DNA of 42,093 bases. Source: a virus. Shown in pieces: positions 1,961 to 20,045 of the stretch (positions within the stretch are counted from its first letter, which is position 1; the number at the start of each line of letters is the position of its first letter). The position numbers and the translations under genes are program-made. Location: positions 1-42,093 of IMG/VR virus record IMGVR_UViG_3300018405_000005; one strand, given 5' to 3'. A model generated the notes under the pieces. The model searched no databases and was not told where the DNA came from. It was given only the letters and a program-made list of their open reading frames with translations.

Positions 1961-1985
1961 GTTAAAAGCCTCTTTGCAGAGGCTT
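1961..1985 (-). terminator. Hairpin with U tract, leftward intrinsic terminator candidate
   Basis: On the minus strand an 8-bp perfect stem (AAGCCTCT/AGAGGCTT) with a GCAA tetraloop is followed by TTTT. It lies between the methyltransferase gene and the exonuclease gene. The U tract is short, so read-through into the exonuclease-polymerase pair is likely. Confidence 0.65.
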
Positions 1986-2000
1986 ATATTATATTATATT

Positions 2001-3183: not shown

Positions 3184-3215
3184 AATCATCTCCAATTTCT
3201 CTGTTGTTGTCATCA

Positions 3216-4816: not shown

Positions 4817-4835
4817 ATTTTTAGTTCCATGTAAT

Positions 4836-4864
4836 AAAGAAAATGGGAAGCTTTTCAGCTTCCC
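4836..4864 (-). terminator. Hairpin with GAAA loop and U-rich tail, leftward terminator candidate
   Basis: On the minus strand a perfect 8-bp stem (GGGAAGCT/AGCTTCCC) closes a GAAA tetraloop and is followed by ATTTTCTTT. It lies between the end of the gene at 4942-5526 and the FAD-type gene, so it should reduce transcription into the thyX operon. Confidence 0.75.
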
Positions 4865-4941
4865 AGTTTCGAATCAACTCTGGTCAATTATCAGTTACAT
4901 GGATGGGTTGATAAAATACGTGCCCAGAGTATCATCTATGC

Positions 4942-5526
4942 TTATGCTTCAGTAGTAGCTTCAACACCAGCAATTTGGTTTACCATAGCGTGGATTGCTA
5001 GGTAGTGAGATTGGTGACGCTTAACGTTCTCTGATGTTTCTTCGTTGCCATCAGTACCTTGGATGAACGCAATTGCTTGCTCTTTTGAACAAGTTGGGTT
5101 CGCAACAAGGAAGGCATAGAACTTGCCAGCAAAACCTTGTTTGCCACCGCCGTTACCACCTTTTGATTTCTTGAACACTTCAAGCTCATTTTTCTTAGCG
5201 TAAGCACGAATAAGAGCAGCAGCAGATTTTTCAGTGCCGTTGATTGCTTCAGCAAGAGTAGCAACAGCGCCATCAAAACCTTCTTCAGTTGAAAGGTCAA
5301 CACCTTCAACTGCTTCAAGAAGCTTCTGTTCTTTTTCTTCTTTGCTTACTGCTAGACCAGCATCAACCATGAATTGGTTGAACAGGCGTGTAACGTTTTT
5401 GAACGTTGCACCAGCAGAGATCATGTCAAGTTTGATTGCATCTTCTTCTTTGCCAGCTTCATGTGCTGCGTCAAATGCTTCGCGGATTGCAACTTCTACT
5501 TCATTTTCATTAACTTGTTCAGGCAT
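4942..5526 (-). CDS. Conserved phage protein, paralogue of the 17176-17862 product
   Basis: A 194-residue acidic, mostly helical protein of unknown function. Its second half (about residues 130-185) aligns with residues about 66-120 of the protein encoded at 17176-17862. Shared positions include GFA then (K/D)(F/Y)Y, (Q/K)A(I/K)AFI.G, ET..NVK.H..HYL and a following I.A. A glycine- and lysine-rich linker (about 120-130, KKSKGGNGGGKQG) precedes the shared domain, as an alanine/lysine stretch does in the other copy. The N-terminal part is rich in Glu and Ala. It stands as its own unit, with a 132-bp leader before it and a terminator-like hairpin after it. GGAG lies before the ATG. A DNA-binding or abundant accessory replication role is only a guess. 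Confidence 0.8.
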   Translation of the reverse strand: MPEQVNENEVEVAIREAFDAAHEAGKEEDAIKLDMISAGATFKNVTRLFNQFMVDAGLAVSKEEKEQKLLEAVEGVDLSTEEGFDGAVATLAEAINGTEKSAAALIRAYAKKNELEVFKKSKGGNGGGKQGFAGKFYAFLVANPTCSKEQAIAFIQGTDGNEETSENVKRHQSHYLAIHAMVNQIAGVEATTEA

Positions 5527-5658
5527 GGGATACTCTCCAGTTGTATTTGTTAGGGGAAAAACTAAATAACCTTTTAGGCTAGGACTTAAATATAACCTAT
5601 AGGCTTGTTTAAGGGAAGCGTTTTTGACAAATTTCTTATAACTTTTTAGCCCTTTTTA

Positions 5659-7227: not shown

Positions 7228-8072
7228 AACATTTCATCCTTTTCATATTGATCACATGGTTTGAAATCATCACATACAACATTTGCATAAGTACAGCGCC
7301 AAATGCCATTGTCTTCAACATCAACATGCTTGCAGTTCTTGCAAGAACGCTTCATTGGCTTCTTGTCAAAGCAAACTTGACGAGCGTCACAAAGCTTACA
7401 CTCAAACCAAGTTGGTTGGTTGTTGCCAATTCGGTCTGAAAGAACTTCAAGCATGATCACTTCCGCTTCTTTACGTTGTAGCTCTTTGAAGTGCGCCTCA
7501 TCAAAGTCTTCCCATTCAAGATAGATTGTTGAGTCATTCTTGTTGTAAGCCATATACAGAGCTTTGGTCAATTTGCGATAGCCCATATAGGCTTGCATCT
7601 GATCATAGTGGCCAGGCTTTGATACTTTAACTTTGTTCTTTAACAGGTCTTTGAATGACTTGTCATTGTGAGTCTTGAACTCTGTAAGGAATGTCATTCC
7701 CTTGTATGTCTCAAAGAACTCAGAGCCAGGGTGGAACACACCCTCTCCATCGATGTGACCCTTCCAGTGACCTGCAACACCTGACACACTAGCTTGATCA
7801 TTCTTGACAACAATGCCCAGCTTCTTCAACTCAGCTGTTAAGACTGGCTCCATGCGATGCCCTTCATTGAACAGGCGGAGAATACGAGCTGAGTGCTTAA
7901 CAGTGTAGCAGTCATAGTGAGCCAATTGCATTTGGCGGATACATTTGTTACCGATTGAAGACAAGCCATTGTAGCCACGTAGGTCTTGTTCAATTTCAAT
8001 CTCATTTAGACGCCACATCATCTCCTGTTCAGGAGTGCGCTTCTTCTTCAGAAGACTTCCAATTTTTGCCAT
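7212..8072 (-). CDS. RecB/Cas4-like PD-(D/E)XK nuclease with cysteine clusters
   Basis: A 286-residue nuclease. The core reads GHIDG (D108), TEFKTH (E131, K133) and YDQMQAYM (about 157-163), the D, ExK and QxxxY motifs of RecB-family exonucleases. After the core, cysteines at about 225, 228 and 234 (CKLCDARQVC) and 244, 247 and 260 (CKNC ... WRC) suggest an Fe-S or zinc site, as in Cas4/AddB-like enzymes. It should degrade or process DNA ends for recombination. It is coupled to the SF2 helicase gene by a 16-base overlap, which suggests they work together as a nuclease-helicase pair. No helicase domain is fused to it. Confidence 0.85.
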   Translation of the reverse strand: MAKIGSLLKKKRTPEQEMMWRLNEIEIEQDLRGYNGLSSIGNKCIRQMQLAHYDCYTVKHSARILRLFNEGHRMEPVLTAELKKLGIVVKNDQASVSGVAGHWKGHIDGEGVFHPGSEFFETYKGMTFLTEFKTHNDKSFKDLLKNKVKVSKPGHYDQMQAYMGYRKLTKALYMAYNKNDSTIYLEWEDFDEAHFKELQRKEAEVIMLEVLSDRIGNNQPTWFECKLCDARQVCFDKKPMKRSCKNCKHVDVEDNGIWRCTYANVVCDDFKPCDQYEKDEMFWELN

Positions 8073-8093
8073 AATAGTATTCCAAGGTGTCTA

Positions 8094-8121
8094 CAAAAAA
8101 GGCAGCCTACAAGAGACTGCC
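8094..8121 (-). terminator. Hairpin with U6 tract, leftward terminator candidate
   Basis: On the minus strand a 7-bp stem (GGCAGTC/GGCTGCC, one T-G pair) with a 7-base loop is followed by TTTTTTG. It sits about 20 bases before the start of the nuclease gene and after the DUF669 gene, so it would divide the single-strand-annealing genes from the nuclease-helicase pair. Confidence 0.75.
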
Positions 8122-8185
8122 AAGGGGGATTGCTAACAAATAAAACTTTGATCAACTTATCAGTGGTTGAACACAAGTTGAGAAA

Positions 8186-8611
8186 TTACTCTACAGCTTT
8201 GTAGCCTTTGATTTCGTTCTTTGCTGGCCATTCAGATGTTTCAGGCTTGACAGAAAGCTTGATCATCATGTCTTGGTCATGCAAGTCAACAGTATCTTCA
8301 AGCTCACCTTCAAAGCCAATTGCTTCACAGATTGATTTCAAATCAGATTGTGCAATTCGAACAGCAGTTTCATTTTTGTTGATGATGTTTAAGTTAGTGA
8401 AGACAAAACGACCTTCTGACTTAACTTCTTCACCATCAATTTCAACGTCTTCAGTGATACGGAACTTAAGAGCAATGTATTTGCCATCTTTAAGTTTTGT
8501 ATCTTTAAGCTCAGACTTAACGATTTCAGCTGGGTACCAACCTGCAGGCAGTACAGTGAATTCCATTGACTCAGCTTCTTCTGGTACGAAAACGTTTGGT
8601 AATAGTGCCAT
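8186..8611 (-). CDS. DUF669-family protein, probable single-stranded DNA-binding recombination partner
   Basis: A 141-residue protein of the DUF669 type: N-terminal PAGWYPAEIVKSELKDTK, then YIALKFRITE, then a strand-rich middle and a C-terminal WPAKNEIKGYKAVE. DUF669 proteins are usually encoded beside Sak4 or ERF-type annealing proteins in phages and are thought to bind single-stranded DNA. Here the Sak4-like ATPase gene is directly upstream, which fits. The two genes are separated by a strong hairpin (8645-8672), so their ratio may be set at the RNA level. Confidence 0.8.
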   Translation of the reverse strand: MALLPNVFVPEEAESMEFTVLPAGWYPAEIVKSELKDTKLKDGKYIALKFRITEDVEIDGEEVKSEGRFVFTNLNIINKNETAVRIAQSDLKSICEAIGFEGELEDTVDLHDQDMMIKLSVKPETSEWPAKNEIKGYKAVE

Positions 8612-8644
8612 GATAGTGTTCCTTATTTGGTTCAGTTTCAGTTT

Positions 8645-8672
8645 CTAAAATAGGCGGTAGGATTACCGCCTA
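8645..8672 (-). terminator. Strong 9-bp hairpin with TTTT tail between two recombination genes
   Basis: A perfect 9-bp inverted repeat (TAGGCGGTA/TACCGCCTA) closes a 4-base loop. On the minus strand it is followed by TTTT. It lies between the Sak4-like gene and the DUF669 gene. The tail is short, so partial termination, or mRNA 3'-end protection after processing, are both possible. Confidence 0.65.
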
Positions 8673-8690
8673 GACGTAGTATAAAAGATT

Positions 8691-9398
8691 CTAAGCGGCT
8701 TTTCTAGCCTTTTTAGCTTTAATCTTATTAAATAATTCAGTGAGGTTAGGAACGCTGTCAGCGTCCTTGGCAAACTCACCTTTAGGGTCAAGTGCACCAG
8801 AGCGGTCTTTTGCAAAGATGCGACGAGTAGGTTTTGTCTGTAGGAATGGCAAACCTTTACGGTCTGTATCCATATAGAACAATTCATCTACTAGGTAAGG
8901 CACCTGATTGCCCAGCACTTTACCTGGCAGCAATAGCTCAGTGTATAACACTCCGCTATCTTCATCCTGAACATCAATCTTCTTACAAGTGAAGACAGTG
9001 TTGACATCCTTCAGGTCACGGAACTTCTTAAGCATTGGAATCATAGCGTGAGCCAACGCTGCATATGCTTGACGACCATCCTTGTGCTTTGGAAGTTCTT
9101 CTTCAATCAGAACCTCAGCAATCTCAGATAGTGAGTCAAGACAGATTGTTTCCCACTTGCCATCTTTGTTGTTCTTCTTGATGTACTCGTAAGCATCATC
9201 AAGGTCTTGCAGAGTGCTAATCTCAATGAATGGCACATCTACTTCAGACAGAGACAGCAAGCCTTGCTCAGCGGAAATAAGCAAAGGCTTTGGAGCTGTA
9301 GCACACAGACGTGTCTTACCAACACCTGCGCCACCGTAAACAATACACTTAACACCATTGAATTCAATCTCTGATGTTTGTTGAATCTTAATTGCCAT
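8691..9398 (-). CDS. Sak4-like RecA-core ATPase (single-strand annealing recombinase)
   Basis: A 235-residue P-loop protein of the phage nucleotide-binding AAA_24/Sak4 type. Walker A is GGAGVGKT (22-29) and Walker B is ICLDS (84-88). It ends in a lysine/alanine-rich tail (KIKAKKARKAA). Sak4-type proteins anneal or pair single-stranded DNA with help from an SSB. The genes nearby encode a DUF669 protein, RusA resolvase and a RecB-like nuclease, so a homologous recombination or replication-repair module is likely. The ATG overlaps the stop of the upstream gene (TAATG). Confidence 0.85.
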   Translation of the reverse strand: MAIKIQQTSEIEFNGVKCIVYGGAGVGKTRLCATAPKPLLISAEQGLLSLSEVDVPFIEISTLQDLDDAYEYIKKNNKDGKWETICLDSLSEIAEVLIEEELPKHKDGRQAYAALAHAMIPMLKKFRDLKDVNTVFTCKKIDVQDEDSGVLYTELLLPGKVLGNQVPYLVDELFYMDTDRKGLPFLQTKPTRRIFAKDRSGALDPKGEFAKDADSVPNLTELFNKIKAKKARKAA

Positions 9399-9808
9399 TA
9401 TTCTTCATCCTTAGCAACTGGAACTACTTTGATTGATGGTAAGCTAGGCTTGACAGTAATGTAATCATCAAGCTCAGCAGATGCTTCATCAGACAGCTTG
9501 TCATAGACTTTCTTGTCAAGCTCAAACTTAACACGAATTGCATCTGATGCTTCTTCTGAAAGAATATCCTGCTCAAGAGCTTCTTCAATTTCAGATTGGC
9601 TGAATGAGTATGTCTGACCATATGTGCCAGTGACCATAAAGCCACCAACTTCAGACTTCAGAGTGCCAAGGTTGTTTTTGCCAAATAGCTCTTCAAGGAT
9701 GCTTGCACGCAAGTCACGCTCTTGTGATTGAAGCTCTTTGATTTTAGCAGCAATGTCTTGTTGCTTTTGGATGTTCTTCACTAACTCTTCAGATTGAATC
9801 TTTGCCAT
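9398..9808 (-). CDS. Conserved phage protein of unknown function with N-terminal coiled coil
   Basis: A 136-residue acidic protein. Residues about 5-45 (KNIQKQQDIAAKIKELQSQ...) are heptad-like and probably form a coiled coil; the rest is mixed strand and helix with many Asp and Glu. I do not recognise the family. It lies inside the recombination module between RusA and the Sak4-like gene, and overlaps the latter by one base. The start at 9808 (MAKIQSEE) is chosen because GGAGAG lies just upstream; a longer reading upstream would overlap the end of rusA. Confidence 0.75.
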   Translation of the reverse strand: MAKIQSEELVKNIQKQQDIAAKIKELQSQERDLRASILEELFGKNNLGTLKSEVGGFMVTGTYGQTYSFSQSEIEEALEQDILSEEASDAIRVKFELDKKVYDKLSDEASAELDDYITVKPSLPSIKVVPVAKDEE

Positions 9809-9810
9809 GG

Positions 9811-10215
9811 TTACTCTCCAGTATCTAACAAATGCTCCATCCCTCTTGGGATACAAGGAGCTGCTTCTGAAATGCGGATGTAGCAGCCACCATCAGGTGA
9901 AGCTACTGTTCCACGATATACACATAGTTGATCAACTTGGCTATCATCACCCCATATGTGTGCATGGGATATAGCATCTTGCAGAGGCTTGACTAAGTTG
10001 TCCAAGTCACGCTTGCGTTTATCAGGCATCCAATAGACTACATCAATCCTAACTTTGCAATCAATTGGCTCCATGCCTGCTAACTGCTCGTGAGCATCAT
10101 TAATAAGCTGATCACGAAATTTTTTGCCCTTGGCAGATATGAACACACCACGTTGAGTCTTAACATAGTAATTGTTCACACTAGGCGGAAATGCAGTAAA
10201 CAATTCACATATCAT
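9811..10215 (-). CDS. rusA: RusA-type Holliday junction resolvase
   Basis: A 134-residue RusA-family endonuclease that cuts Holliday junctions and other branched DNA. The family start FPPSVNNYY (9-17) and the acidic triad are present. With the start used here the aspartates fall at D70 and D72 (KRDLDN) and D91 (WGDDSQ), the same spacing as in E. coli RusA. The ATG at 10213-10215 has GGAG seven bases upstream; a TTG nine codons earlier is less likely. The gene start lies inside the end of the 54-residue ORF before it. It probably resolves branched replication or recombination intermediates before packaging. Confidence 0.92.
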   Translation of the reverse strand: MICELFTAFPPSVNNYYVKTQRGVFISAKGKKFRDQLINDAHEQLAGMEPIDCKVRIDVVYWMPDKRKRDLDNLVKPLQDAISHAHIWGDDSQVDQLCVYRGTVASPDGGCYIRISEAAPCIPRGMEHLLDTGE

Positions 10216-10369
10216 TGAACAACTCCATAAGATTTCTAGCAATCTTGTCAGCTTTGCTTTGATTAATGTCCTTCTCTGTAATTAGCTTGTCTGCTAGTTG
10301 GAAGCTGTATTGAACCTTGCGTTGGTCAATTAGCTCAATTGCATATTTGATCAATTCAATATTATTCAT
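10205..10369 (-). CDS. Small coupled ORF, 54 residues, unknown function
   Basis: A small reading frame (MNNIELIKYAIELIDQRK..., ending ...MELFNDM) that fills the gap between the primase-helicase gene and rusA. Its ATG overlaps the primase stop by eight bases (ATGAATAA), and its end overlaps the rusA start by 11 bases. This tight fit and the amphipathic helical sequence support a real gene. No family is recognised. It could be a small accessory factor for the primase or resolvase. Confidence 0.7.
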   Translation of the reverse strand: MNNIELIKYAIELIDQRKVQYSFQLADKLITEKDINQSKADKIARNLMELFNDM

Positions 10370-12599
10370 CCAATAAACTCTCCATTATCTGAACACAAGG
10401 AGTGTTCTTCTTTTTACAGGTTGGGTGACCATCAAGCAGCCTGACCATACCCATGCGCTCCATTGAACGTAGCGTTCTCTCAACAAACTCTTTTGTTGAC
10501 ATCTTGCGCTCTGCTGCCAATGCATCCATCTTTGAGTTCATTCTATCAATGAGAACTGTTCTCTTAACAACCTTTGCCTTTCTTTGTTTAGGGCTTGTGC
10601 TGCCATGATTTAGAGCTGCAATCAAACGCTCTTTGAGGTGCTCAATAGCAAAGTTGTACTCATTGCTGCTTCGCATATAAGCCAAGTTGTGGTTGATGTT
10701 TTCCATCTCCCAGTCTATCATTGACTTACCCCACAGCCAGCAGCTATCATCAATCTCAATATCTCCGCTTGTCCAATGATTGAACACTGTGGCAAGGGCT
10801 GCAAACTTGATCATCTTGTGAGCCATACGTGAAGCCATATTCTTACTCACAGGGTCATCTTCCCATTGAGTCTCATACATTTCAGATATGTCACAATACT
10901 CTTCAAATTGTGCATCAGTGAGCTTAACAATGTGAGGCGTGAAGTCAGTAACTGCCTGTACTTTACTACCTTCAAGAATCAGCAACTTGTACTGCTCTAC
11001 TATTTCTTCATCAAAGTCGTATGTAAAGCTTCTGTTTCTGTCACGGTTAATCTTTGGCTTATCTACAACTCTGAACACTGTTTGTCGTGGCAAGAAGCCA
11101 GACTCAAGTGCATTCATATCTTTAAGTGAACGAGACAGTGATTCTTCAGTTGATTCAAGAACAAAGCTAGGCGCTGGTGCTCTGAATCTCTTCAGGCTGT
11201 TTTCTTCACTTGAGTATGAGCGAGTTGATGAGTAACTCAAATAACCAGAGTTCAAGAAGTTTTCCATAACATAAGCGGAAAGCTCATCTGCGTTACCAGA
11301 CTTTGCACCAAGCATGATGCCAGCTTCCTGCATACAGATTATTCTTGAGCGACCACACTCCAAATCTTTGTGTAGTGGTTTTGGTGCTGTATAGTTGTTG
11401 GCACCAAGAAAGCTTATTGCTCCATCACCTCCAGATAAATTAATGATTTTGCCATTCAAGCCACCTGAAAATAGCTCATTGAAATACTTACTGATTTGAC
11501 CTTTGCCATAGCCTGTGCCTGCTGAAACTGTAAAGGACAGATTCAATCCAGACAGCTGGTCAGACATAACATTCCACTTTGCCCCACAAATGGCAGCAAG
11601 AGAGCCAAAGCACATCGAGAATGCAAACTCATTGCATGGTCGAGGCATGTCTCTCATTATTTGGTGGTACAAGCGACCTGTTCTGCCTGGCGGTACAGGT
11701 GGAGGTGTGTATTTTGCTTCCTCTTTTTCAATCGTAGGTATCTCAAATGACTGCGCTTCTTCGTCTGAGGCTCTTTGGATTCCGCCATCAACTAATCTCT
11801 CCAAATCTTTCATTCGTGTTAGCCAACGCTCTGTTCCCGCTTCTACAGATGATTCCATAGCTGAGCGGAGCATTGACAAGATTATTGCTCTGGAAACTCC
11901 ATCCTTTGCAAGTTGGAATGAAAGGTTTCTGAGCGACTGGTGGAACTCCTTGCCTGAGCGGATGTTCTCGAACATCTCATCAAGCGTCTCCACTTCTCCA
12001 CTTGACTTGCTTTCACCACTCTCACGTGTGCGCTCCTTAACTTCTTCAGGTGCAACATGGATGGTCTGAAACTTGTCTCCTTCAAAGTAGCTGAAGTGCT
12101 GATAGCTCTCTGGATTGTCTGAGCGTGGTAAGAACCAAATCTGTGACCACGTGTCCATCTCATGAGCATATTTAAGTGCGCATCCATTGGCTGTCAACTC
12201 ATCAATGAGTTGAGACATATTTGTATGCAGCTCATGAGACTCAATTGGGTTGCTAAGCTCAATGATACCACGATACTTGTGATAATCATCAGAGTGACTA
12301 TGAGTTGTATACAAAATATGAGAGTAACCAAGGGCACAAAGCGCATTGTGACACTCTCCAATTGTAGGAGTTTTGTTACCGTTAATGCCACCATCACCAT
12401 CAATGATAAGTAGGCTAGAGTATTCCAAGTGTTCATCGCATCGTCCTGGTTGTGTTAAAGCACCACGGATAAAACCAGTACCGAGCTTATTACCCTTCTC
12501 ACACTTCTCAAAGATTTTGTCCATCTCAGGAAGTGTCATTGAGTAAATCTCAGCCTTGGAATTTGCCTTTTCAGATGCTTGTACTGTAATCTTGAACAT
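10362..12599 (-). CDS. Primase-helicase replication protein (AEP-like primase plus DUF3987-type ATPase)
   Basis: A 745-residue protein. The N-terminal third resembles archaeo-eukaryotic-type phage/plasmid primases: SSLLIIDGDGG (D67, D69), then ILYTTHSHSDDYHKYRGIIELSNPI, where YTTHSH and the following arginine are typical. The central and C-terminal part resembles DUF3987 helicase-like domains, with PPGRTGRLYHQIMRDMPRP, a P-loop-like SAGTGYGKGQ and a strongly charged C-terminus that may bind DNA. It is expected to make primers and unwind DNA at the fork. The ATG at 12597-12599 is preferred over a GTG two codons earlier. A hairpin and a promoter candidate lie just upstream. Confidence 0.85.
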   Translation of the reverse strand: MFKITVQASEKANSKAEIYSMTLPEMDKIFEKCEKGNKLGTGFIRGALTQPGRCDEHLEYSSLLIIDGDGGINGNKTPTIGECHNALCALGYSHILYTTHSHSDDYHKYRGIIELSNPIESHELHTNMSQLIDELTANGCALKYAHEMDTWSQIWFLPRSDNPESYQHFSYFEGDKFQTIHVAPEEVKERTRESGESKSSGEVETLDEMFENIRSGKEFHQSLRNLSFQLAKDGVSRAIILSMLRSAMESSVEAGTERWLTRMKDLERLVDGGIQRASDEEAQSFEIPTIEKEEAKYTPPPVPPGRTGRLYHQIMRDMPRPCNEFAFSMCFGSLAAICGAKWNVMSDQLSGLNLSFTVSAGTGYGKGQISKYFNELFSGGLNGKIINLSGGDGAISFLGANNYTAPKPLHKDLECGRSRIICMQEAGIMLGAKSGNADELSAYVMENFLNSGYLSYSSTRSYSSEENSLKRFRAPAPSFVLESTEESLSRSLKDMNALESGFLPRQTVFRVVDKPKINRDRNRSFTYDFDEEIVEQYKLLILEGSKVQAVTDFTPHIVKLTDAQFEEYCDISEMYETQWEDDPVSKNMASRMAHKMIKFAALATVFNHWTSGDIEIDDSCWLWGKSMIDWEMENINHNLAYMRSSNEYNFAIEHLKERLIAALNHGSTSPKQRKAKVVKRTVLIDRMNSKMDALAAERKMSTKEFVERTLRSMERMGMVRLLDGHPTCKKKNTPCVQIMESLLDE

Positions 12600-12614
12600 A
12601 TGCACTATTCCACA

Positions 12615-12644
12615 ATAAAACCCGTGCAGACTACCTGCAACGGG
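12615..12644 (-). terminator. Hairpin with TTTT tail just before the primase gene
   Basis: On the minus strand CCCGT-T-GCAG pairs with CTGC-ACGGG (9 bp with one bulged T, 5-base loop) and is followed by TTTTATT. It is 15 bases upstream of the primase start. It could end transcripts coming from the small-gene cluster. If the promoter candidate at 12649-12677 is real, it would instead form the 5' end of the primase mRNA and could stabilise it. Confidence 0.65.
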
Positions 12645-12648
12645 TCTT

Positions 12649-12677
12649 ATATTATATAACTATATATAGACTATCAA
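12649..12677 (-). promoter_or_regulatory. Candidate sigma70-type promoter for the primase operon
   Basis: On the minus strand TTGATA (12672-12677) is followed after 17 bases by TAATAT (12649-12654), or after 15 bases by TATAAT. The area is very AT-rich, so a match by chance is possible. The predicted start would fall at the hairpin before the primase gene. Confidence 0.4.
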
Positions 12678-12712
12678 TAAAGAACTTTTTATTATAAGTA
12701 TATAACTAACAG

Positions 12713-12973
12713 TTATAAGCAGACTATGTTTTGTTCATGAACTTCTGTGATAATGCGCCTGTCAGCAAGCTCTGTGATATTCATCAGCGGAATCATGCTG
12801 CGCTTGTATAGGTCATCAAGCTTGTCATAATCATATTGCATAGACCACTTCTCGCCAAATGTATTAAACATGATTTGACGACAACGTTCTTTTGTCTCTG
12901 CCTCAATGATGACAAAGCGATTAGGGAATGTGTGGCCACAGCCAAATGTAAATATTTGAGTTTGACGTTCCAT
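12713..12973 (-). CDS. Small conserved phage protein, 86 residues, unknown function
   Basis: An 86-residue protein with the pattern TFGCGHTFPNRFVIIEAETKERCRQIMFNTFGEKWSMQYD, split here by family-like conserved blocks FGCGHTF, EAETKE and FGEKW. Similar short proteins of unknown role are common in phages. No transmembrane segment is seen. It is the last gene of the small-gene cluster and is followed by an AT-rich leader and a hairpin before the primase. Confidence 0.75.
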   Translation of the reverse strand: MERQTQIFTFGCGHTFPNRFVIIEAETKERCRQIMFNTFGEKWSMQYDYDKLDDLYKRSMIPLMNITELADRRIITEVHEQNIVCL

Positions 12974-13293
12974 TACAAGTCCTCCAACTCTGCAATTTCA
13001 ATAACTACACTCTCAAGTCTTTCTTTGACTTCAACTTGAGTCACAAGTGCTTTAAGCAGCGCGTAATTCTGCACCAAGTCTATTACCTTTTGCGTAGTGT
13101 CAAGACCTAATGAAGCTAGTGTTTCCTTAGTGTTTGCAATCTTCACTTCAGAGTGAGCTTTTATGAAGTCAGGAATCTCAACACCTGCAATTGTGTGGTA
13201 TCCATTCTTTCTCGGCATCTCACCCCAAACTTTTGAATACACTGCACTTGCTTCTTCAGCAGCCTTCTTGTCAATCTTTTCTTGAATGCTCAT
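12973..13293 (-). CDS. Hypothetical protein, 106 residues, helical
   Basis: A 106-residue charged, mostly helical protein with no recognised family. Its C-terminal half (about 60-104) looks able to form a coiled coil (TQKVIDLVQ... VKERLESVVIEIAELE). It overlaps both neighbours by one base (TAATG type), so it is part of a translationally coupled string. Confidence 0.65.
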   Translation of the reverse strand: MSIQEKIDKKAAEEASAVYSKVWGEMPRKNGYHTIAGVEIPDFIKAHSEVKIANTKETLASLGLDTTQKVIDLVQNYALLKALVTQVEVKERLESVVIEIAELEDL

Positions 13294-13586
13294 TATATGT
13301 TTCTCCCATCATTGATTGCTTTTTCATTGATTTGCTCACACTCGCTGATTGATTTCCAGCGGCTGCTCATAACAGTGGTTCGTACTGAAGATGGGTCAGA
13401 ATTTGACATGAGCAAATTCAAGCGCTCTTTATCAGCATCAGACTGGTTTGCCAACAAGCGGTTTGCCTTGCGAAGCTTTTTGTTATTTGCCATTAACTGC
13501 AAGATTGCTGGTGCCAATAGAGCAGCAGTAATTGAACCACCTACCAAGTAAGCAACCTGCTCACTAGTCATTGTAAAATCCATCAT
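13293..13586 (-). CDS. Small membrane-anchored protein with coiled-coil tail
   Basis: A 97-residue protein with one hydrophobic segment near the N-terminus (about 11-31, VAYLVGGSITAALLAPAILQ) and a charged helical tail (NNKKLRKANRLLANQ...). It is probably inserted in the inner membrane with the tail in the cytoplasm. The start is placed at 13586 because AAGG lies nine bases before the ATG; the gene begins inside the end of the preceding gene. Its location in the early arm suggests host takeover rather than lysis, but this is not shown. Confidence 0.6.
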   Translation of the reverse strand: MMDFTMTSEQVAYLVGGSITAALLAPAILQLMANNKKLRKANRLLANQSDADKERLNLLMSNSDPSSVRTTVMSSRWKSISECEQINEKAINDGRNI

Positions 13587-13887
13587 CACATTCACCTTCT
13601 AGGTATGAGATTGCTTTGTCCATGCGCCATTGGTACAACTCAGCCAAGCGGATTTCTGTATCAAGCGCATTCTGTAGTAGTTGAAGAGCTGTATCAGAGT
13701 CAACTTCAATCACTGTTGTGGAGATATTCAAAGTCACCAATTTATCATGAGTGTCTTTGTTCTTATTAATTGAATCAATCTTTGCTTTGATATCATCAAT
13801 TTTGCCAGCTGAGATATTGGGCTTGCCAATAAGCTCACGAATATGTTTTGCCTTTGTGGCAACCTTTTGGTATGATTCAACCTTCAT
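13564..13887 (-). CDS. Hypothetical protein, 107 residues, coiled coil
   Basis: A 107-residue protein of lysine-rich helix (about 1-50) followed by a strand (TLNISTTVIEVD) and a second helix containing LYQWRMDKAISYLEGE. The family is not recognised. One base overlaps the gene before it, and 23 bases overlap the membrane-protein gene after it. Confidence 0.65.
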   Translation of the reverse strand: MKVESYQKVATKAKHIRELIGKPNISAGKIDDIKAKIDSINKNKDTHDKLVTLNISTTVIEVDSDTALQLLQNALDTEIRLAELYQWRMDKAISYLEGECDDGFYND

Positions 13888-14198
13888 TAGAATTTACCTC
13901 TGTGTCGCATGTCTATGTAAACAGAAGTTCGACCGTTGTAGCCCATAAATCTGATCACCTCATGGGCAAATACAAACTTCTTATTAATGTGTTTAAACTT
14001 GATAGAGTTAGCATGGTGAATAATATCACAACGGTCTCTATGACCATCACAAATCAAATGATAAAGCTCATTCATCAAAGTCTTTTGTTGGCGATAGTTA
14101 TCACACCACACTAGCACGACTGGCTCATCTGCATAGACTGCTTCTTTCCAGCTTGTGAAATGCTTGAACTTAGCATCCATATACTCTTTGTTAGCCAC
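13887..14198 (-). CDS. Hypothetical protein, 103 residues, GTG start
   Basis: A 103-residue protein (ANKEYMDAKFKHFTSWKEAVYADEP... ending MRHRGKF). It has alternating hydrophobic strands and a His-rich middle (HANSIKFKHINKKFVFAHE). The GTG at 14196-14198 is preferred because GGGAG lies eight bases upstream and the start overlaps the previous stop by eight bases (GTGGCTAA), as at several junctions nearby. An ATG five codons earlier has no ribosome site. The function is unknown. Confidence 0.6.
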   Translation of the reverse strand: MANKEYMDAKFKHFTSWKEAVYADEPVVLVWCDNYRQQKTLMNELYHLICDGHRDRCDIIHHANSIKFKHINKKFVFAHEVIRFMGYNGRTSVYIDMRHRGKF

Positions 14199-14763
14199 GA
14201 TGAGCACTCCCATCTTCAGATTGATCAGGATTGAATCGCCCAAGAATATAATCTGGGCGACGTTGATCAGGCTGAGGACAAGCAGCAACAATTCGCCAGC
14301 CTGAGTTTAATGCGCCTTGGAGCTGGTCTGTACAAGCATCTTCTAGCAGCATCATATCATTGTATGTAGCAAGGGCACTGCCAGGCATATGGACTTCACA
14401 CTTGTTATTGTATGTGTTTCCGCTTGGTAGCTCAAGCTGCTCCAATGACTTCTCATTCACCTTGCTAAACAGAAGCGCTGGGTCAACTTGCTTAACAATA
14501 GTCTGCTTCAATACCATCTCAATGCCTTTCTCAAGCAAGTCCAGATATTGCTCAGCAGTAAGGGTGATGTCATCTGATTCCAAATCAACTATGTCTCGAC
14601 TGTGGTAGCCGTTGCCGTCATCAGGAGTAATAAGCGGAAGAAGAGTAAACGGCTCAGTGCCGTCTACTTTGCGAGATAACTCAGTGTGCATCTTCACATA
14701 TGAATCATAAGAGTCATATTGGTTGATTCGCAGCTGAACTGCATATAGTTTAATGTTAATCAT
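14191..14763 (-). CDS. Hypothetical phage protein, 190 residues
   Basis: A 190-residue protein with a C-terminal block (GALNSGWRIVAACPQPDQRRPDYILGR) that is typical of a phage family in which a single-page summary function is unknown. The middle holds a helical stretch (LTAEQYLDLLEKGIEMVLKQ). It starts at the second ATG (14761-14763), where GGAG lies seven bases upstream and the start overlaps the previous stop. It is the largest gene of the small-gene cluster. No catalytic motif is evident. Confidence 0.65.
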   Translation of the reverse strand: MINIKLYAVQLRINQYDSYDSYVKMHTELSRKVDGTEPFTLLPLITPDDGNGYHSRDIVDLESDDITLTAEQYLDLLEKGIEMVLKQTIVKQVDPALLFSKVNEKSLEQLELPSGNTYNNKCEVHMPGSALATYNDMMLLEDACTDQLQGALNSGWRIVAACPQPDQRRPDYILGRFNPDQSEDGSAHRG

Positions 14764-14972
14764 TAGCATACTCCAAATGCACAGTAAATGATGGCATCTC
14801 GTAGTGATACAAAGTAGCGAGTGCGAGCATACCAGTTGAATTTGCCTTGACCTTCCACTTTACGGATGCGATAAGGCTTGTCTTTGCCTTCAATCATGAC
14901 CAGATAATGCTTATCTTCTTGGCTCTTAAAGTTGCGGTGTACTTTATATGATGGTAAAATCTGCTTAGCCAT
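14763..14972 (-). CDS. Small basic hypothetical protein, 69 residues
   Basis: A 69-residue lysine- and arginine-rich protein (MAKQILPSYKVHRNFKSQ...), probably a small beta-rich fold. It is expressed from a GGAGAAGTATCATGG ribosome-site cassette that also serves the gene at 14965-15270. Function unknown. Confidence 0.65.
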   Translation of the reverse strand: MAKQILPSYKVHRNFKSQEDKHYLVMIEGKDKPYRIRKVEGQGKFNWYARTRYFVSLRDAIIYCAFGVC

Positions 14973-15270
14973 GATACTTCTCCAATTCGCCTTCTCTTAC
15001 ATCCCTGTATTGCCACCATGCCTCACAACTCTCTGGGCCAGAGCCTGTAACTTGCAAAGTCCTGTGCATCCACTTCCAGAAATGCACCTTGTCACCAAGC
15101 ATGATAGGCGTGCTCAAAAATACAAGCTGTCCACTCTTTGTTTCTATAGAATTTGGCGTAAAAATCCAAGTAATTAGCCAAGCTCCACATATGTATCCTG
15201 CAAGCTTCACTAAATAAAACAAGATAATTAAAAGCACAATTCCAATTGATCTTAACTTTGTCTTATCCAT
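14965..15270 (-). CDS. Small membrane protein, 101 residues
   Basis: A 101-residue protein with a strongly hydrophobic segment at about 9-37 (IGIVLLIILFYLVKLAGY... ITWIF), long enough for one or two membrane passes, then a soluble tail with several Trp residues. It ends in EKYHG, where the codons double as the ribosome site and start of the next gene. Function unknown; an inner-membrane host-takeover or exclusion protein is one option. Confidence 0.6.
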   Translation of the reverse strand: MDKTKLRSIGIVLLIILFYLVKLAGYICGAWLITWIFTPNSIETKSGQLVFLSTPIMLGDKVHFWKWMHRTLQVTGSGPESCEAWWQYRDVREGELEKYHG

Positions 15271-15406
15271 GATACTTCTCCACTAGTTTGGTCAGTTTAG
15301 CGGAAAGTGAACGCTTTTCCTGTAGAAGCGAGCGTTTGTACTGTTGCTTAGTCATGATAACAGCGTGTTGTGGGCGCTTTGAAGCAGATGATTTAAGGTG
15401 TTTCAT
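15263..15406 (-). CDS. Small basic protein, 47 residues
   Basis: A 47-residue, very basic protein (MKHLKSSASKRPQHAV... QEKRSLSAKLTKLVEKYHG). GGAG lies before the ATG and a good promoter candidate (15443-15471) lies upstream. Its stop overlaps the next start by eight bases (ATGGATAA). Its size and charge would suit a nucleic-acid-binding or host-inhibiting peptide; nothing more can be said. Confidence 0.6.
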   Translation of the reverse strand: MKHLKSSASKRPQHAVIMTKQQYKRSLLQEKRSLSAKLTKLVEKYHG

Positions 15407-15442
15407 TGTAGTATTCTCCAGTATTCTGTAATTCGAGTTTAT

Positions 15443-15471
15443 AATATAAAGGATATTTTTGTGAAAGTAAA
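15443..15471 (-). promoter_or_regulatory. Candidate sigma70-type promoter inside the small-gene cluster
   Basis: On the minus strand TTTACT (15466-15471) is followed after exactly 17 bases by TATATT (15443-15448). It lies in the only real gap of the cluster between 15406 and 15475, about 37 bases before the gene at 15263-15406. Confidence 0.5.
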
Positions 15472-15474
15472 GCT

Positions 15475-15624
15475 TTAATTAAGATATAAAGCCAGTGCGA
15501 TAACTAAATCGACAATTACGAACTTGCCTAGACCATAAGCAAAGCGATTCAATCGTGTGTCATCTAGGTTTTCTATGTCCTCACTCCACTCTAAGCCAGC
15601 AAGGAATGCTATGATTGGTTGCAT
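15475..15624 (-). CDS. Small protein with C-terminal hydrophobic segment, 49 residues
   Basis: A 49-residue frame (MQPIIAFLAGLEWSEDIENL... ending VIVDLVIALALYLN). The C-terminal 15 residues could span or insert in a membrane. Its ATG lies inside the last codons of the preceding gene, with GAGGAA just before it. No family is recognised. The coding call rests on tight spacing and the ribosome site. Confidence 0.55.
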   Translation of the reverse strand: MQPIIAFLAGLEWSEDIENLDDTRLNRFAYGLGKFVIVDLVIALALYLN

Positions 15625-15857
15625 GATTCCTCCACATCAGTTAATTCATGCATTTCCGCTTGAGAATACCAACGGTCATCACAAGGCATATAGTATTGCA
15701 TCAGTGGTGTGGCATCATCTGGACAAACATCTTCTGCCTTTTCCCACCATTCAATATTGAACTCACACGGTCTGATTGTATCCCAAGTGCATTCTTCACC
15801 ATTCTCAAAGATGAATCGAATGCGAATAAGTGTGATTGTGCTAGCTATTTTAGGCAT
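15609..15857 (-). CDS. Hypothetical protein, 82 residues, Trp/Cys-rich
   Basis: An 82-residue acidic protein with several tryptophans and cysteines (CTWDTIRPCEFNIEWWEKAEDVCPDD). The ATG at 15855-15857 overlaps the previous stop by eight bases (ATGCCTAA), and AGGA lies before it. A metal-binding role is possible because of the cysteines, but no clear site is formed. Function unknown. Confidence 0.6.
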   Translation of the reverse strand: MPKIASTITLIRIRFIFENGEECTWDTIRPCEFNIEWWEKAEDVCPDDATPLMQYYMPCDDRWYSQAEMHELTDVEESCNQS

Positions 15858-16194
15858 CAGGGTATTCCTCGCTGTAGTAAGTTGAGAAGAAGACACCATT
15901 TGAGTACACTGGCAAGCCTGAAGCACTCAATCCAAGCAGCACCTGACGTCCTGCAAATGACGGCTTGAGGTATGTTGAGCCAGCACGTGGTGTGAAGTTA
16001 TCACGATTGTAAGCTCTGCCATCACTGAACAGGAAGCCCAAGTCACCAGTTGGGCAACGGAATGTCTTTACTAGCGTTGGAATAGTGTCCAAATCAAGTG
16101 ATTCAAGCATCTCACGAGTGATTGCGTCTACTCCAGTGTTTGGATTGGCTGGCTTTTCAAGCAAGCGGATTTGTGCATCAGTTAGTTTGCGCAT
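15850..16194 (-). CDS. Hypothetical protein, 114 residues
   Basis: A 114-residue protein beginning MRKLTDAQIRLLEK and continuing as a probable beta-rich domain (GDLGFLFSDGRAYNRDNF... VLLGLSASGLPVYSNGVFF). The family is not recognised. It follows the 61-residue membrane protein in the cluster with three bases between them. Confidence 0.6.
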   Translation of the reverse strand: MRKLTDAQIRLLEKPANPNTGVDAITREMLESLDLDTIPTLVKTFRCPTGDLGFLFSDGRAYNRDNFTPRAGSTYLKPSFAGRQVLLGLSASGLPVYSNGVFFSTYYSEEYPDA

Positions 16195-16197
16195 GTG

Positions 16198-16383
16198 TTA
16201 TTCTCCTTTCATGCACTCAATTGCGGCTGCGAGCAGGATAGTGACCAGAAGTGCGGTGCCAATGCCTGCATAAATGTTACTAAATATGTCTGTCAGGTAG
16301 AAACAAGACAGTACAAATGTGATAGAAGTGATGGCTGGGTAGATATAGTCATTAAAGACTGCTGATTTAAGTAGTTTTGCCAT
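16198..16383 (-). CDS. Small two-pass membrane protein, 61 residues
   Basis: A 61-residue protein with two hydrophobic segments (about 12-34 and 36-56, the second AGIGTALLVTILLAAAIE). Its ribosome site AGGATAG overlaps a copy of the heptamer TATCCTA (16390-16396) that is otherwise concentrated in the repeat region at 16932-17156. It could be an early holin-like, exclusion or host-membrane factor; there is no direct evidence. Confidence 0.6.
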   Translation of the reverse strand: MAKLLKSAVFNDYIYPAITSITFVLSCFYLTDIFSNIYAGIGTALLVTILLAAAIECMKGE

Positions 16384-16388
16384 TGCTT

Positions 16389-16733
16389 CTATCCTATCAA
16401 TGTTGAGTATTTAGGCGAGTAAATCTTGATGCCATCAATGCGAGGCGTGTCCATATAGCTGCCACCAGTCGATGCCTGCTCTGATTTGTACCATTCTAGG
16501 AAGTTACTAAACTTGAGCCAATCAGTGCAAATGTATGTTTTGCCATTGCCATCACAAGCATACTCGAAAAGCTTTGTCCATTGCTTGTATATCCGCTTTG
16601 TTGTGATGTCTCTTGATGCTCCTTTGATGTCCATAACAGCACCAATACAGCGCATCTTCCTTTGTACAGGTCGCTCCAGATATAATGTAACAGCATCCTC
16701 AGAAGGGTGATGCTTAATCATGTGTTTTGCCAT
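16389..16733 (-). CDS. Hypothetical phage protein, 114 residues, possible HNH/AP2-like remnant
   Basis: A 114-residue basic protein. The segment YKQWTKLFEYAC... YICTDWLKFSNFLEWY resembles the W..M...C...C..W..FSNF..W pattern of phage HNH/AP2-like endonuclease accessory domains, but no catalytic histidines are arranged as in HNH. The likeness is weak. GGAGG lies five bases before the ATG, one of the best ribosome sites in this arm. It is the first gene after the repeat region at 16741-17170. Confidence 0.6.
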   Translation of the reverse strand: MAKHMIKHHPSEDAVTLYLERPVQRKMRCIGAVMDIKGASRDITTKRIYKQWTKLFEYACDGNGKTYICTDWLKFSNFLEWYKSEQASTGGSYMDTPRIDGIKIYSPKYSTLIG

Positions 16734-16740
16734 GTTGACC

Positions 16741-17170
16741 TCCAGCGGAGTTTTAAGGTTATAGGGTTACGGGGATAATAATAGCCTACCTATATAGATA
16801 AGTAAACTAGGCTATTCTCGTAAACCTCCTGTTGTATACGAGGCGTTACCCCTTACCTAGTACCTTTATAAGCCTACTAGGTAAAGGCTCTTAGAATCGC
16901 TTAGAGCGATTAAATCGCTTATCCTCCCGACTATCCTATTTATCCTACGAGTATCCTATTTTAGTAGGATAAAGGAAGTCTTTGATTTATAAGGGGAAAT
17001 AGGGGAAAATCCCTACCATCCTATTAATCCTACAGGGGTGTGTGTGCGCAGGTGCGAGAGAGAGAACAGGGTAGGCTAGGATAGTAGGATAGAAAGAGTA
17101 AAATAGTAATAGAATTAGTAACTTATATATCCTACTACTATCCTACTACTATCCTATTTATCCCCTAGCC
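16741..17170. repeat. Gene-free repeat region with iteron-like heptamers and inverted repeats; candidate replication origin or control region
   Basis: No credible gene lies between 16734 and 17175. The left half has three perfect inverted repeats: AATAGCCTA/TAGGCTATT (16780-16788 with 16808-16816), TACCTAGTA/TACTAGGTA (16854-16862 with 16875-16883) and AATCGCT/AGCGATT (16895-16901 with 16905-16911). The right half has the heptamer TATCCTA at 16932, 16941, 16952, 17128, 17139 and 17150, and its complement TAGGATA at 16965, 17077 and 17085. The core ATCCTA also occurs at 17018 and 17027. The last three are spaced exactly 11 bases. TG and CA steps are rare apart from a short TGTGTG block near 17038-17058. 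Clustered repeats at helical spacing are typical of initiator or regulator binding sites. Confidence 0.75.
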
Positions 17171-17175
17171 AGCCC

Positions 17176-17862
17176 TTATGCCTTCATGATTTTTAGGGCT
17201 TCTGTCTGAGCATCAGCTGGTTTGATGCCTTTTGCATCCACAAATTCTTGTAGTGCTGACAGCTTGTCTAGCTCGTTTTGCTCCAATCCTTCCTTGTCAA
17301 AGTTGCTAAGGTGCTGGCGAATTAGTGTGATAGTCTTGAACTCTCCCTTGGCAATCTTAGCAAATAGGCTGATTAGCTCTTTCTTTGCGTTGCGCTCCTG
17401 TTCTGGCTCTGGCTCTGCCTTAGCTTTCTTGCTAGTGCCAGTCGCTTTCTTCGCTGTGCTCCCACCACTTACAGAGCGGAGTACTGTCTCACCAGAGCGA
17501 ACTGTCTCTGCCAGCGCCCAGATATTAAGGTAATGAGTGAGGTGGTTCTTGACGTTGTTAGTAGTCTCGCCGTATTCCTCTGACTCACCCATGATGAATG
17601 CCTTGGCATCTGCCTCGCTTCGAGCATCCTCAGCCAGCCAATTGTAGTAATCTGCTGCGAACCCGCCTGCTGCCCTCTTAGCCTTTTGTGGCTGTGCTTC
17701 CTTCCAAGCCTCATTAAGGTCTTTGGCTGTGTCACCTCGCTCTTTACCCCAAGCTAGGTAGATGTCTTTGGCTCCTGCTATTCCGCTATTAATAGAAAGT
17801 GTAGCTGCCTCTGAGATAGTAGAAGCGGATGTAAGGTCTTTCATTAGTTCTAAGATAGTCAT
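17176..17862 (-). CDS. Early protein of unknown function, paralogue of the 4942-5526 product
   Basis: A 228-residue protein, first of the leftward arm. Residues about 66-120 (GFAADYYNWLAE... GETTNNVKNHLTHYLNIWALAE) match the C-terminal domain of the protein encoded at 4942-5526. A charged linker (about 140-162, KKATGTSKKAKAEPEPEQER) separates this from a helical C-terminal domain (about 163-228, KKELISLFAKIAKGEF... DEL-type helices). It is encoded between the divergent control region and the repeat region, so it is made first and could be a regulator or initiator acting at the nearby repeats. That role is inference. The ribosome site AAGGA lies before the ATG. Confidence 0.75.
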   Translation of the reverse strand: MTILELMKDLTSASTISEAATLSINSGIAGAKDIYLAWGKERGDTAKDLNEAWKEAQPQKAKRAAGGFAADYYNWLAEDARSEADAKAFIMGESEEYGETTNNVKNHLTHYLNIWALAETVRSGETVLRSVSGGSTAKKATGTSKKAKAEPEPEQERNAKKELISLFAKIAKGEFKTITLIRQHLSNFDKEGLEQNELDKLSALQEFVDAKGIKPADAQTEALKIMKA

Positions 17863-17919
17863 AAGTATTCCTTAGTATTCTTTAGTATTCGATTGCTGAC
17901 CTCGTTGGCCAGTGAGATA

Positions 17920-17948
17920 ACTATACGATTATTTGAGACAAAAGGAAA
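17920..17948 (-). promoter_or_regulatory. Weak promoter candidate for the leftward arm
   Basis: On the minus strand TATAGT (17920-17925) makes a good -10, with TTTCCT 17 bases upstream as a poor -35. Other AT-rich -10-like boxes lie at 17978-17990. The real start of the leftward arm must be in this region, but its position is not settled by the sequence. Confidence 0.3.
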
Positions 17949-18003
17949 GAACAATTTGCTATAAGAAAGTGGCTGGATATAACCTTATAGTATAAGCGGT
18001 CAG

Positions 18004-18084
18004 TGGGAGGGGGAGGGGGTAAATTCAGGGGTCAAAGGCAGGGTGTCTACCTCACGCAATTTTCTCACACTTTTCACCCTCCCA
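18004..18084. other. G-rich tract with distant C-rich complement; possible G-quadruplex or hairpin
   Basis: The plus strand carries runs GGG, GGGGG, GGGGG and GGGG between 18005 and 18031, which fits a four-run G-quadruplex pattern. TGGGAGGG (18004-18011) is an exact inverted repeat of CCCTCCCA (18077-18084), so a competing 8-bp hairpin is possible. It lies about 85 bases upstream of the rightward promoter. Confidence 0.5.
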
Positions 18085-18168
18085 GTACAACACCAACCCC
18101 AAAAATATAATATTATAGAAAATAACACCGTACGCTGTACTCTATATAAATTATTTTTAAACTGCACC

Positions 18169-18197
18169 TTGACTTTTCAGGCGAAAAGAGTTATACT
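18169..18197 (+). promoter_or_regulatory. Sigma70-type promoter for the virion gene arm
   Basis: TTGACT (18169-18174) and TATACT (18192-18197) are separated by exactly 17 bases and lie 31 bases before the first virion gene. This is the best-matching promoter in the window. It suggests the structural arm is read by host RNA polymerase, in agreement with the absence of a phage RNA polymerase gene. Confidence 0.8.
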
Positions 18198-18228
18198 CGG
18201 GGTAGAACTGGTAAGTGTGGTGGACACA

Positions 18229-18627
18229 ATGAATCTTGAAGCAAAAATCAAAGAAAGAGCAGCTGAGTTTGAGAACCTCTCAGAAGACGAGTGTGTTCAA
18301 CTTGTGCTGTGTGCTAAGGCACTTTCACTTGATGAGTGCTTTGATTTCTTGTTGATTGATAAAGAAACATTGTCTCCATCGGAAACAAAGTTTGCTCAGC
18401 TGTTGCACAAGCGTGGTCGTGCAATTGGCGTGAAGGATGCAGCAGACAAATTGTTTGCACACATGGCTACTCGCAATGGCGGTCAATCCGCGCTTGAATA
18501 CCTCAAACAGTTTTCCGGTGATTTCTCTGTTGAGGTTCAACCTGCTGGCGGGAGTGGCTTCCAGTTCAACGTAACAATTCCTGAGCCAACGGCTAAAACT
18601 GAAGCTAAGGTATCAACTGGACAATGA
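18229..18627 (+). CDS. Probable terminase small subunit
   Basis: A 132-residue helical, acidic protein (NLEAKIKERAAEFENLSEDECVQ...) directly before and coupled (ATGA overlap) to the large terminase. Its size, position and helical content suit the DNA-recognition subunit that selects phage DNA for packaging. No helix-turn-helix can be claimed with certainty. The open frame extends upstream to 18043, but that part lies across the promoter and is not translated in the main transcript, so the ATG at 18229 is chosen despite a weak ribosome site. Confidence 0.7.
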   Translation: MNLEAKIKERAAEFENLSEDECVQLVLCAKALSLDECFDFLLIDKETLSPSETKFAQLLHKRGRAIGVKDAADKLFAHMATRNGGQSALEYLKQFSGDFSVEVQPAGGSGFQFNVTIPEPTAKTEAKVSTGQ

Positions 18628-20045
18628 TTGTAAATTATGTCGCATCACCTACCATGGCTCGGTTCCATAACAGTCCTGCGTTTGTTCGCAGTCTGTTTGG
18701 CCCAATCGGGTCTGGTAAGTCTGTTGCATGTGTTATTGAAATGTTGCGTATTTCATTCCAAGTGCAAGAGCCAGAGTACAACTCTGACTATCCATTTGGT
18801 GTTCGAAAGAGTCGTTGGGTAGTGGTTCGTAACACATATCGAGAACTGATAGATACCACTATCCAAACATTCTTTGACTGGTACCCTGAATCTCAGGGCT
18901 TGTTCCACAAGCAGGATATGAAGTTCACAACTATCCAGCAATTGCCAGACGGCACTACTGCTCATGTTGAATTTCTATTCCGTGCTCTGGACAAGCCTCA
19001 GGACATCAAGAAGCTGCTATCGCTGGAAGTTACTGGTGGTTGGCTTAATGAGGCTCGTGAGATTCCAAAGGCTATCATGGATATGTTGATTGGTCGTTTG
19101 GGTCGTTACCCACGTAAAATCAATGGCAAAGGTGGTGCTACTCGTCACTGTCTGATTATGGATACCAACCCACCAGATAGTGACCATTGGTACTACAAAG
19201 TGTTCGAGGTCATGAAGCCAGAAGGTTATGAGATATTCTATCAACCATCTGGTTTGTCACCAGAAGCGGAAAACATAGCCAACCTTCCAGAAGGCTACTA
19301 TGAGAAGATGCAATCTGGTAAAGACCAAGAGTGGATTAACGTTTACGTTCATGGGCAGTATGGTTTCGTGCAAGATGGTAAGCCTGTTTGGCAAGAATAC
19401 AAAGATGACATTCATCACACTGATGAAGACATTCCTGTTCCAACGTCCATCCCAATCACAATTGGTATTGACTTTGGTTTGACTCCTGCTGCTATCTTTG
19501 GCATCAGAACGCCAACTGATCAAATCTGTGTATTTGATGAGCTCGTTGCTGAAGATATGGATGCGAAGACATTTGGTCGTCTGTTGAAACAGAAAATCAT
19601 GTCTGAGTATCCAAACCATACATTTGATGTTTATGGCGACCCTGCTGGTGACTTTAGAGCACAGAGTGACTCATCCACTCCATTCATGATGCTATCATCT
19701 GCTGGGGTCGCCGCCACTCCAACCTGGACTAATGACCCAGTGATTCGGATTGGCGCAGTGTCTCAGGCACTTAAACGACTTGATTCAGCTGGCAACCCTG
19801 GCTTTATCATTGGTCCAAAAGCAAAGATTATCCGCAAAGCTATGGCTGGCGGTTACAAGTATAAACGTTTACAGGTGTCTGGTGAAGAACGCTACATGGA
19901 CAAACCTGATAAGAACCGTTACTCTCACCCTGCTGATGCTCTTCAATATATGGCACTTGGCATGGGTGAAGGAACAACACTAATAGCGTCAGAGAACTCA
20001 GGCAAAGAACTTGATTACAGCCACGCTAACAAGGGTATTGTATAA
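18624..20045 (+). CDS. terL: Terminase large subunit (packaging ATPase-nuclease)
   Basis: A 473-residue terminase. Its ATPase domain has Walker A GPIGSGKS (26-33) and an acidic catalytic segment GGWLNEAREIP (about 137-147). The nuclease domain shows IGIDFG (about 274-279), YGDPAG (about 333-338) and HPADALQYMALG near the C-terminus, each with an aspartate expected at the metal site. It pumps DNA into the prohead through the portal and cuts it at the end. It is followed at once by the portal gene (TAATG overlap). Its sequence style is close to podovirus headful-type terminases, but the packaging mode is not proven. Confidence 0.95.
   Translation: MIVNYVASPTMARFHNSPAFVRSLFGPIGSGKSVACVIEMLRISFQVQEPEYNSDYPFGVRKSRWVVVRNTYRELIDTTIQTFFDWYPESQGLFHKQDMKFTTIQQLPDGTTAHVEFLFRALDKPQDIKKLLSLEVTGGWLNEAREIPKAIMDMLIGRLGRYPRKINGKGGATRHCLIMDTNPPDSDHWYYKVFEVMKPEGYEIFYQPSGLSPEAENIANLPEGYYEKMQSGKDQEWINVYVHGQYGFVQDGKPVWQEYKDDIHHTDEDIPVPTSIPITIGIDFGLTPAAIFGIRTPTDQICVFDELVAEDMDAKTFGRLLKQKIMSEYPNHTFDVYGDPAGDFRAQSDSSTPFMMLSSAGVAATPTWTNDPVIRIGAVSQALKRLDSAGNPGFIIGPKAKIIRKAMAGGYKYKRLQVSGEERYMDKPDKNRYSHPADALQYMALGMGEGTTLIASENSGKELDYSHANKGIV

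Follow-up and report, generated by a model that had tools for sequence, protein, structure and literature searches.

The repeat cluster and its genomic setting

The DNA analysed here (the window, W, 42,093 nucleotides; IMG/VR record IMGVR_UViG_3300018405_000005) has identical ends, positions 1-123 and 41971-42093 agreeing over 123 bp, and its dnaE gene spans the contig junction (1381-2 plus 42091-40535; 82% to VA-RY-3). The contig thus represents a complete phage genome, about 41,970 bp long and circularly permuted. Annotated relatives are the Vibrio phages VA-RY-3 (V) and PVA7 (P) and the Cronobacter phage Ss1 (S), to which IMG/VR locus L044 (X) was added as fifth relative. Owing to the many frameshifted genes in the PVA7 record (PQ582223.1; 98 annotated features, mostly short CDS), its annotation is unreliable and its proteins were used as pieces only. 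The gene products of W include a primase-helicase (phrog_3022/DUF3987), RusA, Sak4, an SSB-like protein, a Cas4-type nuclease, a helicase, a polymerase exonuclease subunit, DnaE and a ligase homologue (the last assigned by synteny with relatives).

Between two leftward genes lies a non-coding gap, which is the longest in the gene list for 823-20045, the contig start (where dnaE lies) excepted, and which holds the whole of the origin-like region (Table 1). The 114-aa ORF beside it (16389-16733) matches part only of an HNH endonuclease family (phrog_953).

Table 1. Features of the origin-like gap and of the genes discussed with it, in window positions
Feature	Position	Strand	Remarks
Primase-helicase gene	10362-12605	-	SS1_45 family, phrog_3022/DUF3987; second candidate initiator
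Non-coding gap	16734-17175		442 bp; no ORF of at least 70 aa
Left repeat group, TATCCTA	16932-16971	+ and -	16932, 16941, 16952 (+); 16965 (-)
Conserved element 2, AAGTCTTTGATTTATAAGGGG	16976-16996	+	sole place in window with at most 5 mismatches
Two partial ATCCTA copies	17018-17032	+	
Purine-rich GAGAGAGAGA stretch	17056-17065	+	comparable stretches in relatives and in the Sfi21 origin
Inverted repeat pair, TATCCTA	17077-17091	-	copies at 17077 and 17085
AT core, TATAAGTTACTAATTCTATTA	17107-17127	-	presumed unwinding element; best PWM match in window (22.1; next 11.0)
Right tandem array, three TATCCTA	17128-17156	+	11-bp spacing; abuts AT core
SS1_01-family gene, 228 aa	17176-17862	-	candidate repeat-binding protein; N-terminal part conserved
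Coding part of SS1_01 C-terminal module	17176-17403	-	about residues 154-228; switches with repeat type; mosaic breakpoint near 17400
terL	start 18624		1.5 kb from repeat gap

An earlier note, made from the letters alone, had described a cluster of nine exact TATCCTA/TAGGATA copies, two further ATCCTA cores and just two copies elsewhere. All nine were recovered, the cores were found at 17018 and 17027, and a count over the whole window bore out the outlying pair (16390 and 39861). The 11 copies in the window compare with 3.4 expected, a number that none of 100 shuffled sequences reached. In a blind scan of all 6- and 7-mers in 250-bp windows, the cluster ranked first in the genome, with 9 heptamers and 11 ATCCTA within less than 250 bp, where the best word of simulated sequences reached at most 4 and at most 5. 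Short repeats therefore stand well above chance in non-coding DNA here, as in iteron-type origins. The helical spacing held for one part of the cluster: the right array (17128/17139/17150) has steps of exactly 11 bp. Elsewhere in the cluster the steps measure 9, 11 and 8 bp, which leaves the right-hand array alone cleanly in helical phase.

Variable repeats and two constant elements

A gap of the same layout lies beside the SS1_01 gene in W, V, P, S and X, and each phage has a different repeat word: TATCCTA in W, TTATCCT in V, TCCCCT/TTCCCC in P, ATCCCC in S and CCCCCTA in X. The word differs even between the two Vibrio alginolyticus phages. Blind word scans of the complete genomes placed the gap as top cluster in V and P, as in W; in S it came top with 6-letter words and tied with 7-letter words. 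Conservation of the array in relatives, for which the earlier note had asked, thus extends to the orthologous position of the gap in four relatives and not to the repeat sequence itself. Lack of conservation, which that note had counted against an origin, is a misleading test, since the repeat sequence varies in relatives.

Two AT-rich elements are constant across the related phages, TATAAGTTACTAATATATATA (the AT core) and AAGTCTTTGATTTATAAGGGG (element 2), of which the first abuts a tandem array spaced 10-12 bp. By reading of the sequences, this array touches the AT core in W, V, P and S, and only a few bases part the two in X. In W the AT core (17107-17127) has the place, next to the repeats, and the predicted unwinding role of the AT-rich element of iteron-type origins. 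A 21-bp PWM trained on W, V, P, S and X gave scores of 22-25 in W, V, P and S. It also scored 25.0 and 24.0 in the untrained distant relatives L060 and L046 (best elsewhere 17.1), where the core has the primase-helicase gene on one side and the RusA gene on the other.

When IMG/VR was scanned for exact copies of TATAAGTWNYTAATATATATA, 17 loci were obtained, including the L060 and L046 contigs as well as L136 and L137, both with replication genes of the SS1 type; the independent viral matches are fewer than 17, since some loci are near copies of one another. Several have repeats of their own, such as TGTCACA in L144 (9 copies), GGGTTAC in L133, L145 and L147, and ACCGTTA in L135. A heptamer occurring at least 5 times within 200 bp accompanied 9 of the 17 viral matches, as against 1 of 31 matches in bacterial genomes, and the bacterial matches were set aside as mostly AT-rich chance. 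The neighbouring genes include primase-helicases of several families; the core lies about 0.1-0.8 kb 3' of such a gene in L046, L060, L136, L137, L145, L135 and L149, and a variant core is likewise placed in L048. At L149 (position 567, Methylomonas MAG), possibly a prophage origin, the core is accompanied by six copies of ACTCCCA and lies near the gene of a DnaB-N/DUF3987 helicase. The AT core also stands beside CTGTGGATAAC sites that resemble DnaA boxes in L141 (8501-8640) and in L134, L140, L143 and L146, a family of phages or elements with no close relation to the window.

The pattern of element 2, AAGTYNTTGATWTATAAGGGG, matched 67 IMG/VR stretches and, when reversed, none. A strong heptamer cluster was present at 10 of the 67 loci, so element 2 is not always joined to iterons. 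In L198 and L205 it sits within GGTTACC arrays. In L192 and L233 it is accompanied by TATCCTA/ATCCTAC repeats; these two share a DUF5906 primase-helicase (93% identical), and no homologue of the window's genes was found in them despite the TATCCTA-type repeats. As L192 has no detectable SS1_01 or SS1_45 homologue, the heptamer neither requires nor by itself identifies either family. Both AT-rich elements hence recur in unrelated phages beside clusters of other heptamers, in many cases downstream (3') of the gene for a primase-helicase. A literature search for the AT-core and element-2 sequences gave no match for the first set and, for the second set, no phage-origin paper by title among the matches listed.

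Candidate readers of the repeats

In the SS1_01 protein the N-terminal part is conserved and the C-terminal module falls into two types across the relatives (for P, the module was joined from two frame pieces before comparison). Between W and P, the N-terminal part is 85% identical and the C-terminal part is unrelated (z -0.7). The module of W matches that of V (z 34) and the module of S that of P (z 22.5); in X the beginning of the module is of the S/P type (z about 6). The repeat type splits in the same manner, W and V having TATCCT and P, S and X having C runs. At the DNA level, W matches P over 17410-18700 but V over 17078-17358, match boundaries which indicate that the module and the right array came as one block. 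This exchange of the module together with the iterons in the SS1 group makes the 17176-17862 protein a candidate origin-recognition factor. Inheritance as a block is expected of a reader protein and may equally reflect plain linkage, because the right arm and the coding end of the SS1_01 C-terminus are adjacent. Distant relatives keep the SS1_01 core only, without the C-terminal module; SS1_01 therefore cannot be a general reader.

No convincing or significant match to SS1_01 was obtained in Pfam, PHROGs or solved structures, Foldseek with its AlphaFold model (mean pLDDT 66) returned no match, and no relatives were found in bacterial genomes. An SDE2-like identity (E 0.0006) was set aside, the match covering a charged linker region. 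A distant SS1_01 paralogue of the SS1_35 family, which has the GFxAxFYxWL...NVKxH core in common with SS1_01, is encoded at 4942-5526; Ss1 and VA-RY-3 have it as well. Three AGTATTC copies at 10-bp spacing (17863-17892; also in PVA7) immediately precede the start codon of SS1_01, possibly an autoregulatory operator or leader.

The other candidate is the primase-helicase. The statement in the earlier note that the phage has no recognised origin-binding protein was too strong, as primase-helicases of the P4 alpha kind, to which broad kind this protein belongs, can bind their own origin. Its C-terminus appears winged-helix-like in an AlphaFold model that is poor overall (mean pLDDT 47; residues 650-747 mostly pLDDT 70-83), and Foldseek with this model was uninformative. 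This C-terminus has no type switch (W-P 60%, W-V 47%). In distant relatives the origin-like region is found at the 3' end of the primase-helicase gene, unlike in W, where the gap lies 4.1 kb from that gene. Both proteins are candidates only, at about equal odds.

A putative replication origin, its rivals and known systems

The gap at 16734-17175 is probably an iteron-type phage replication origin, judging from its sequence and that of its relatives. A phage origin, which the earlier note had thought plausible, is the best-supported reading: the orthologous gap in four relatives combines constant AT-rich elements with abutting lineage-specific repeats, the elements accompany other heptamer clusters near primase-helicase genes, and element 2 lies in an annotated origin, that of phage Sfi21. 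Cumulative GC skew, proposed earlier as a further check, does have its minimum at 15-18 kb; this support is confounded by the divergent gene layout, since a curve of this shape would arise from gene direction by itself.

Under such a mechanism, a phage protein would bind the TATCCTA repeats of the left group, the inverted pair and the right 11-bp-phased array. Its binding would melt the adjacent AT core, aided by element 2, and the melted core would admit the phage primase-helicase, with DnaE-type synthesis then proceeding in both directions. The two AT-rich elements would be the constant parts common to other phages and the iterons the variable part; recognition could fall to the 17176-17862 protein or, alternatively, to the C-terminal winged helix of the primase-helicase.

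Explanations by promoter, RNA or packaging function fit less well. The repeats might be operators through which a phage regulator, possibly the 17176-17862 protein, controls the leftward gene block with no origin role; the genes on either side of the gap do run leftward, a cluster of inverted and direct sites would be apt for cooperative repression, and a -10/-35-like pair is present on the minus strand at 16806-16778. Such a role is nevertheless unlikely: promoter-like sites occur at the shuffled rate (3 found against 2.2 expected) and none overlaps the repeat arrays, the best of them (18169-18197) faces the other way 1 kb off, and the constant AT cores recur downstream (3') of primase-helicase genes, not upstream. 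It is very improbable that the inverted repeat at 17066-17176 is a structured RNA with co-varying arms. Although both strands fold better than shuffles in W, V, S, P and X (z in W -6.1 for the minus and -4.0 for the plus strand), the preferred strand is inconsistent (minus in W, V and S, plus in P, about equal in X), L048, L060 and L045 have no unusual fold, and no Rfam family reached its gathering score. Further, a hairpin needs no helically phased direct array, and repeats also lie outside it (16932-16971). Rfam 'miRNA' matches, on both strands, were discarded as noise from the inverted repeat.

A packaging site of pac or cosB type, read by the small terminase subunit, would suit the closeness of terL, the circularly permuted contig (as expected of headful packaging) and the clustered repeats that lambda cosB also has. 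We hold this highly improbable, as the expected place of terS is the gene just upstream of terL (an SS1_03 homologue), with SS1_01 and the gap beyond it; moreover, the AT core of distant relatives lies beside primase-helicase and RusA genes, away from terL, and element 2 falls inside an annotated replication origin. An HMM search for terS identity gave no match bearing either way. The region could also be origin-like with a host protein as its decisive reader, the correlation with a phage protein being accidental linkage. The L192 locus, where TATCCTA and element 2 occur but no homologue of SS1_01 or SS1_45 could be detected, speaks for this, as do some AT-core matches with DnaA-box-like TTATCCACA nearby instead (judged by eye). 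Against it, the word varies widely between phages, even between the two from Vibrio alginolyticus, and DnaA boxes are not enriched in the window, so that a host reader, too, has little likelihood. A DnaA-dependent origin was rejected, TTATNCACA boxes with at most one mismatch numbering 38 in the window against 56.7 expected, with none inside the gap.

A broader proposal may be made, to which we give an even chance: many unrelated tailed phages with primase-helicase initiators would share a two-part constant origin signal (TATAAGTWNYTAATATATATA plus AAGTYNTTGATWTATAAGGGG), surrounded by exchangeable iterons of each lineage's own, and in the SS1 group the iterons would be swapped as a unit with the C-terminal domain of an origin-recognition protein not named before. 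Since no two lineages have the same repeats, the origins of phages are difficult to locate; should the two AT-rich elements prove general, they would provide a sequence handle for origins in phages with primase-helicase initiators. The natural swap of domain and iterons between close relatives offers a ready-made test of origin specificity and, if the proposal is true, SS1_01, a family without significant Pfam, PHROG or fold match, would gain a function. Iteron-type origins as a kind are already known; of the arrangement of constant elements with swappable iterons and a linked protein module, no description was found in the limited range of literature searched.

Among known systems, the origin of Streptococcus phage Sfi21 (NC_000872, 34487-34784, listed as 302 bp; annotated 'origin of replication, phage inhibitory sequence') resembles the W gap in being non-coding, in having phage-specific short repeats in both orientations and an AT stretch with GAGAGAGA, and in the element TTGATATATAAGGGG, a likeness of which lies at 16976-16996 in W. 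It differs in its GTAACT-type repeats and in lying directly 3' of the primase gene, whereas the W gap lies 3' of SS1_01; it matches the 21-bp AT core weakly (10.8). Phage P4 (NC_001609) is similar in its octamer ori repeats, which occur in both orientations with a spacing of 10-11 bp, and in having crr immediately 3' of the gene for the alpha primase-helicase. Unlike W, P4 has two separate cis sites and the repeat GGTGAACA, a type-1 repeat read by the alpha C-terminal domain; the top words of the W gap are TATCCTA-type and not of this kind, and the P4 origin has no match to the AT core (best 6.8). In the lambda-type ori within gene O, a type-specific initiator domain is likewise inherited together with its iterons; there, however, the coding sequence of O contains the iterons and binding is by the N-terminus, while in W the repeats lie beyond the 3' end of the gene and the C-terminus switches. 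Iteron plasmid origins usually have longer iterons and a Rep protein family, and such a Rep was not found in W. The review PMC4980987 describes direct repeats beside an AT-rich unwinding element in these plasmid origins, and this is the arrangement of the W gap.
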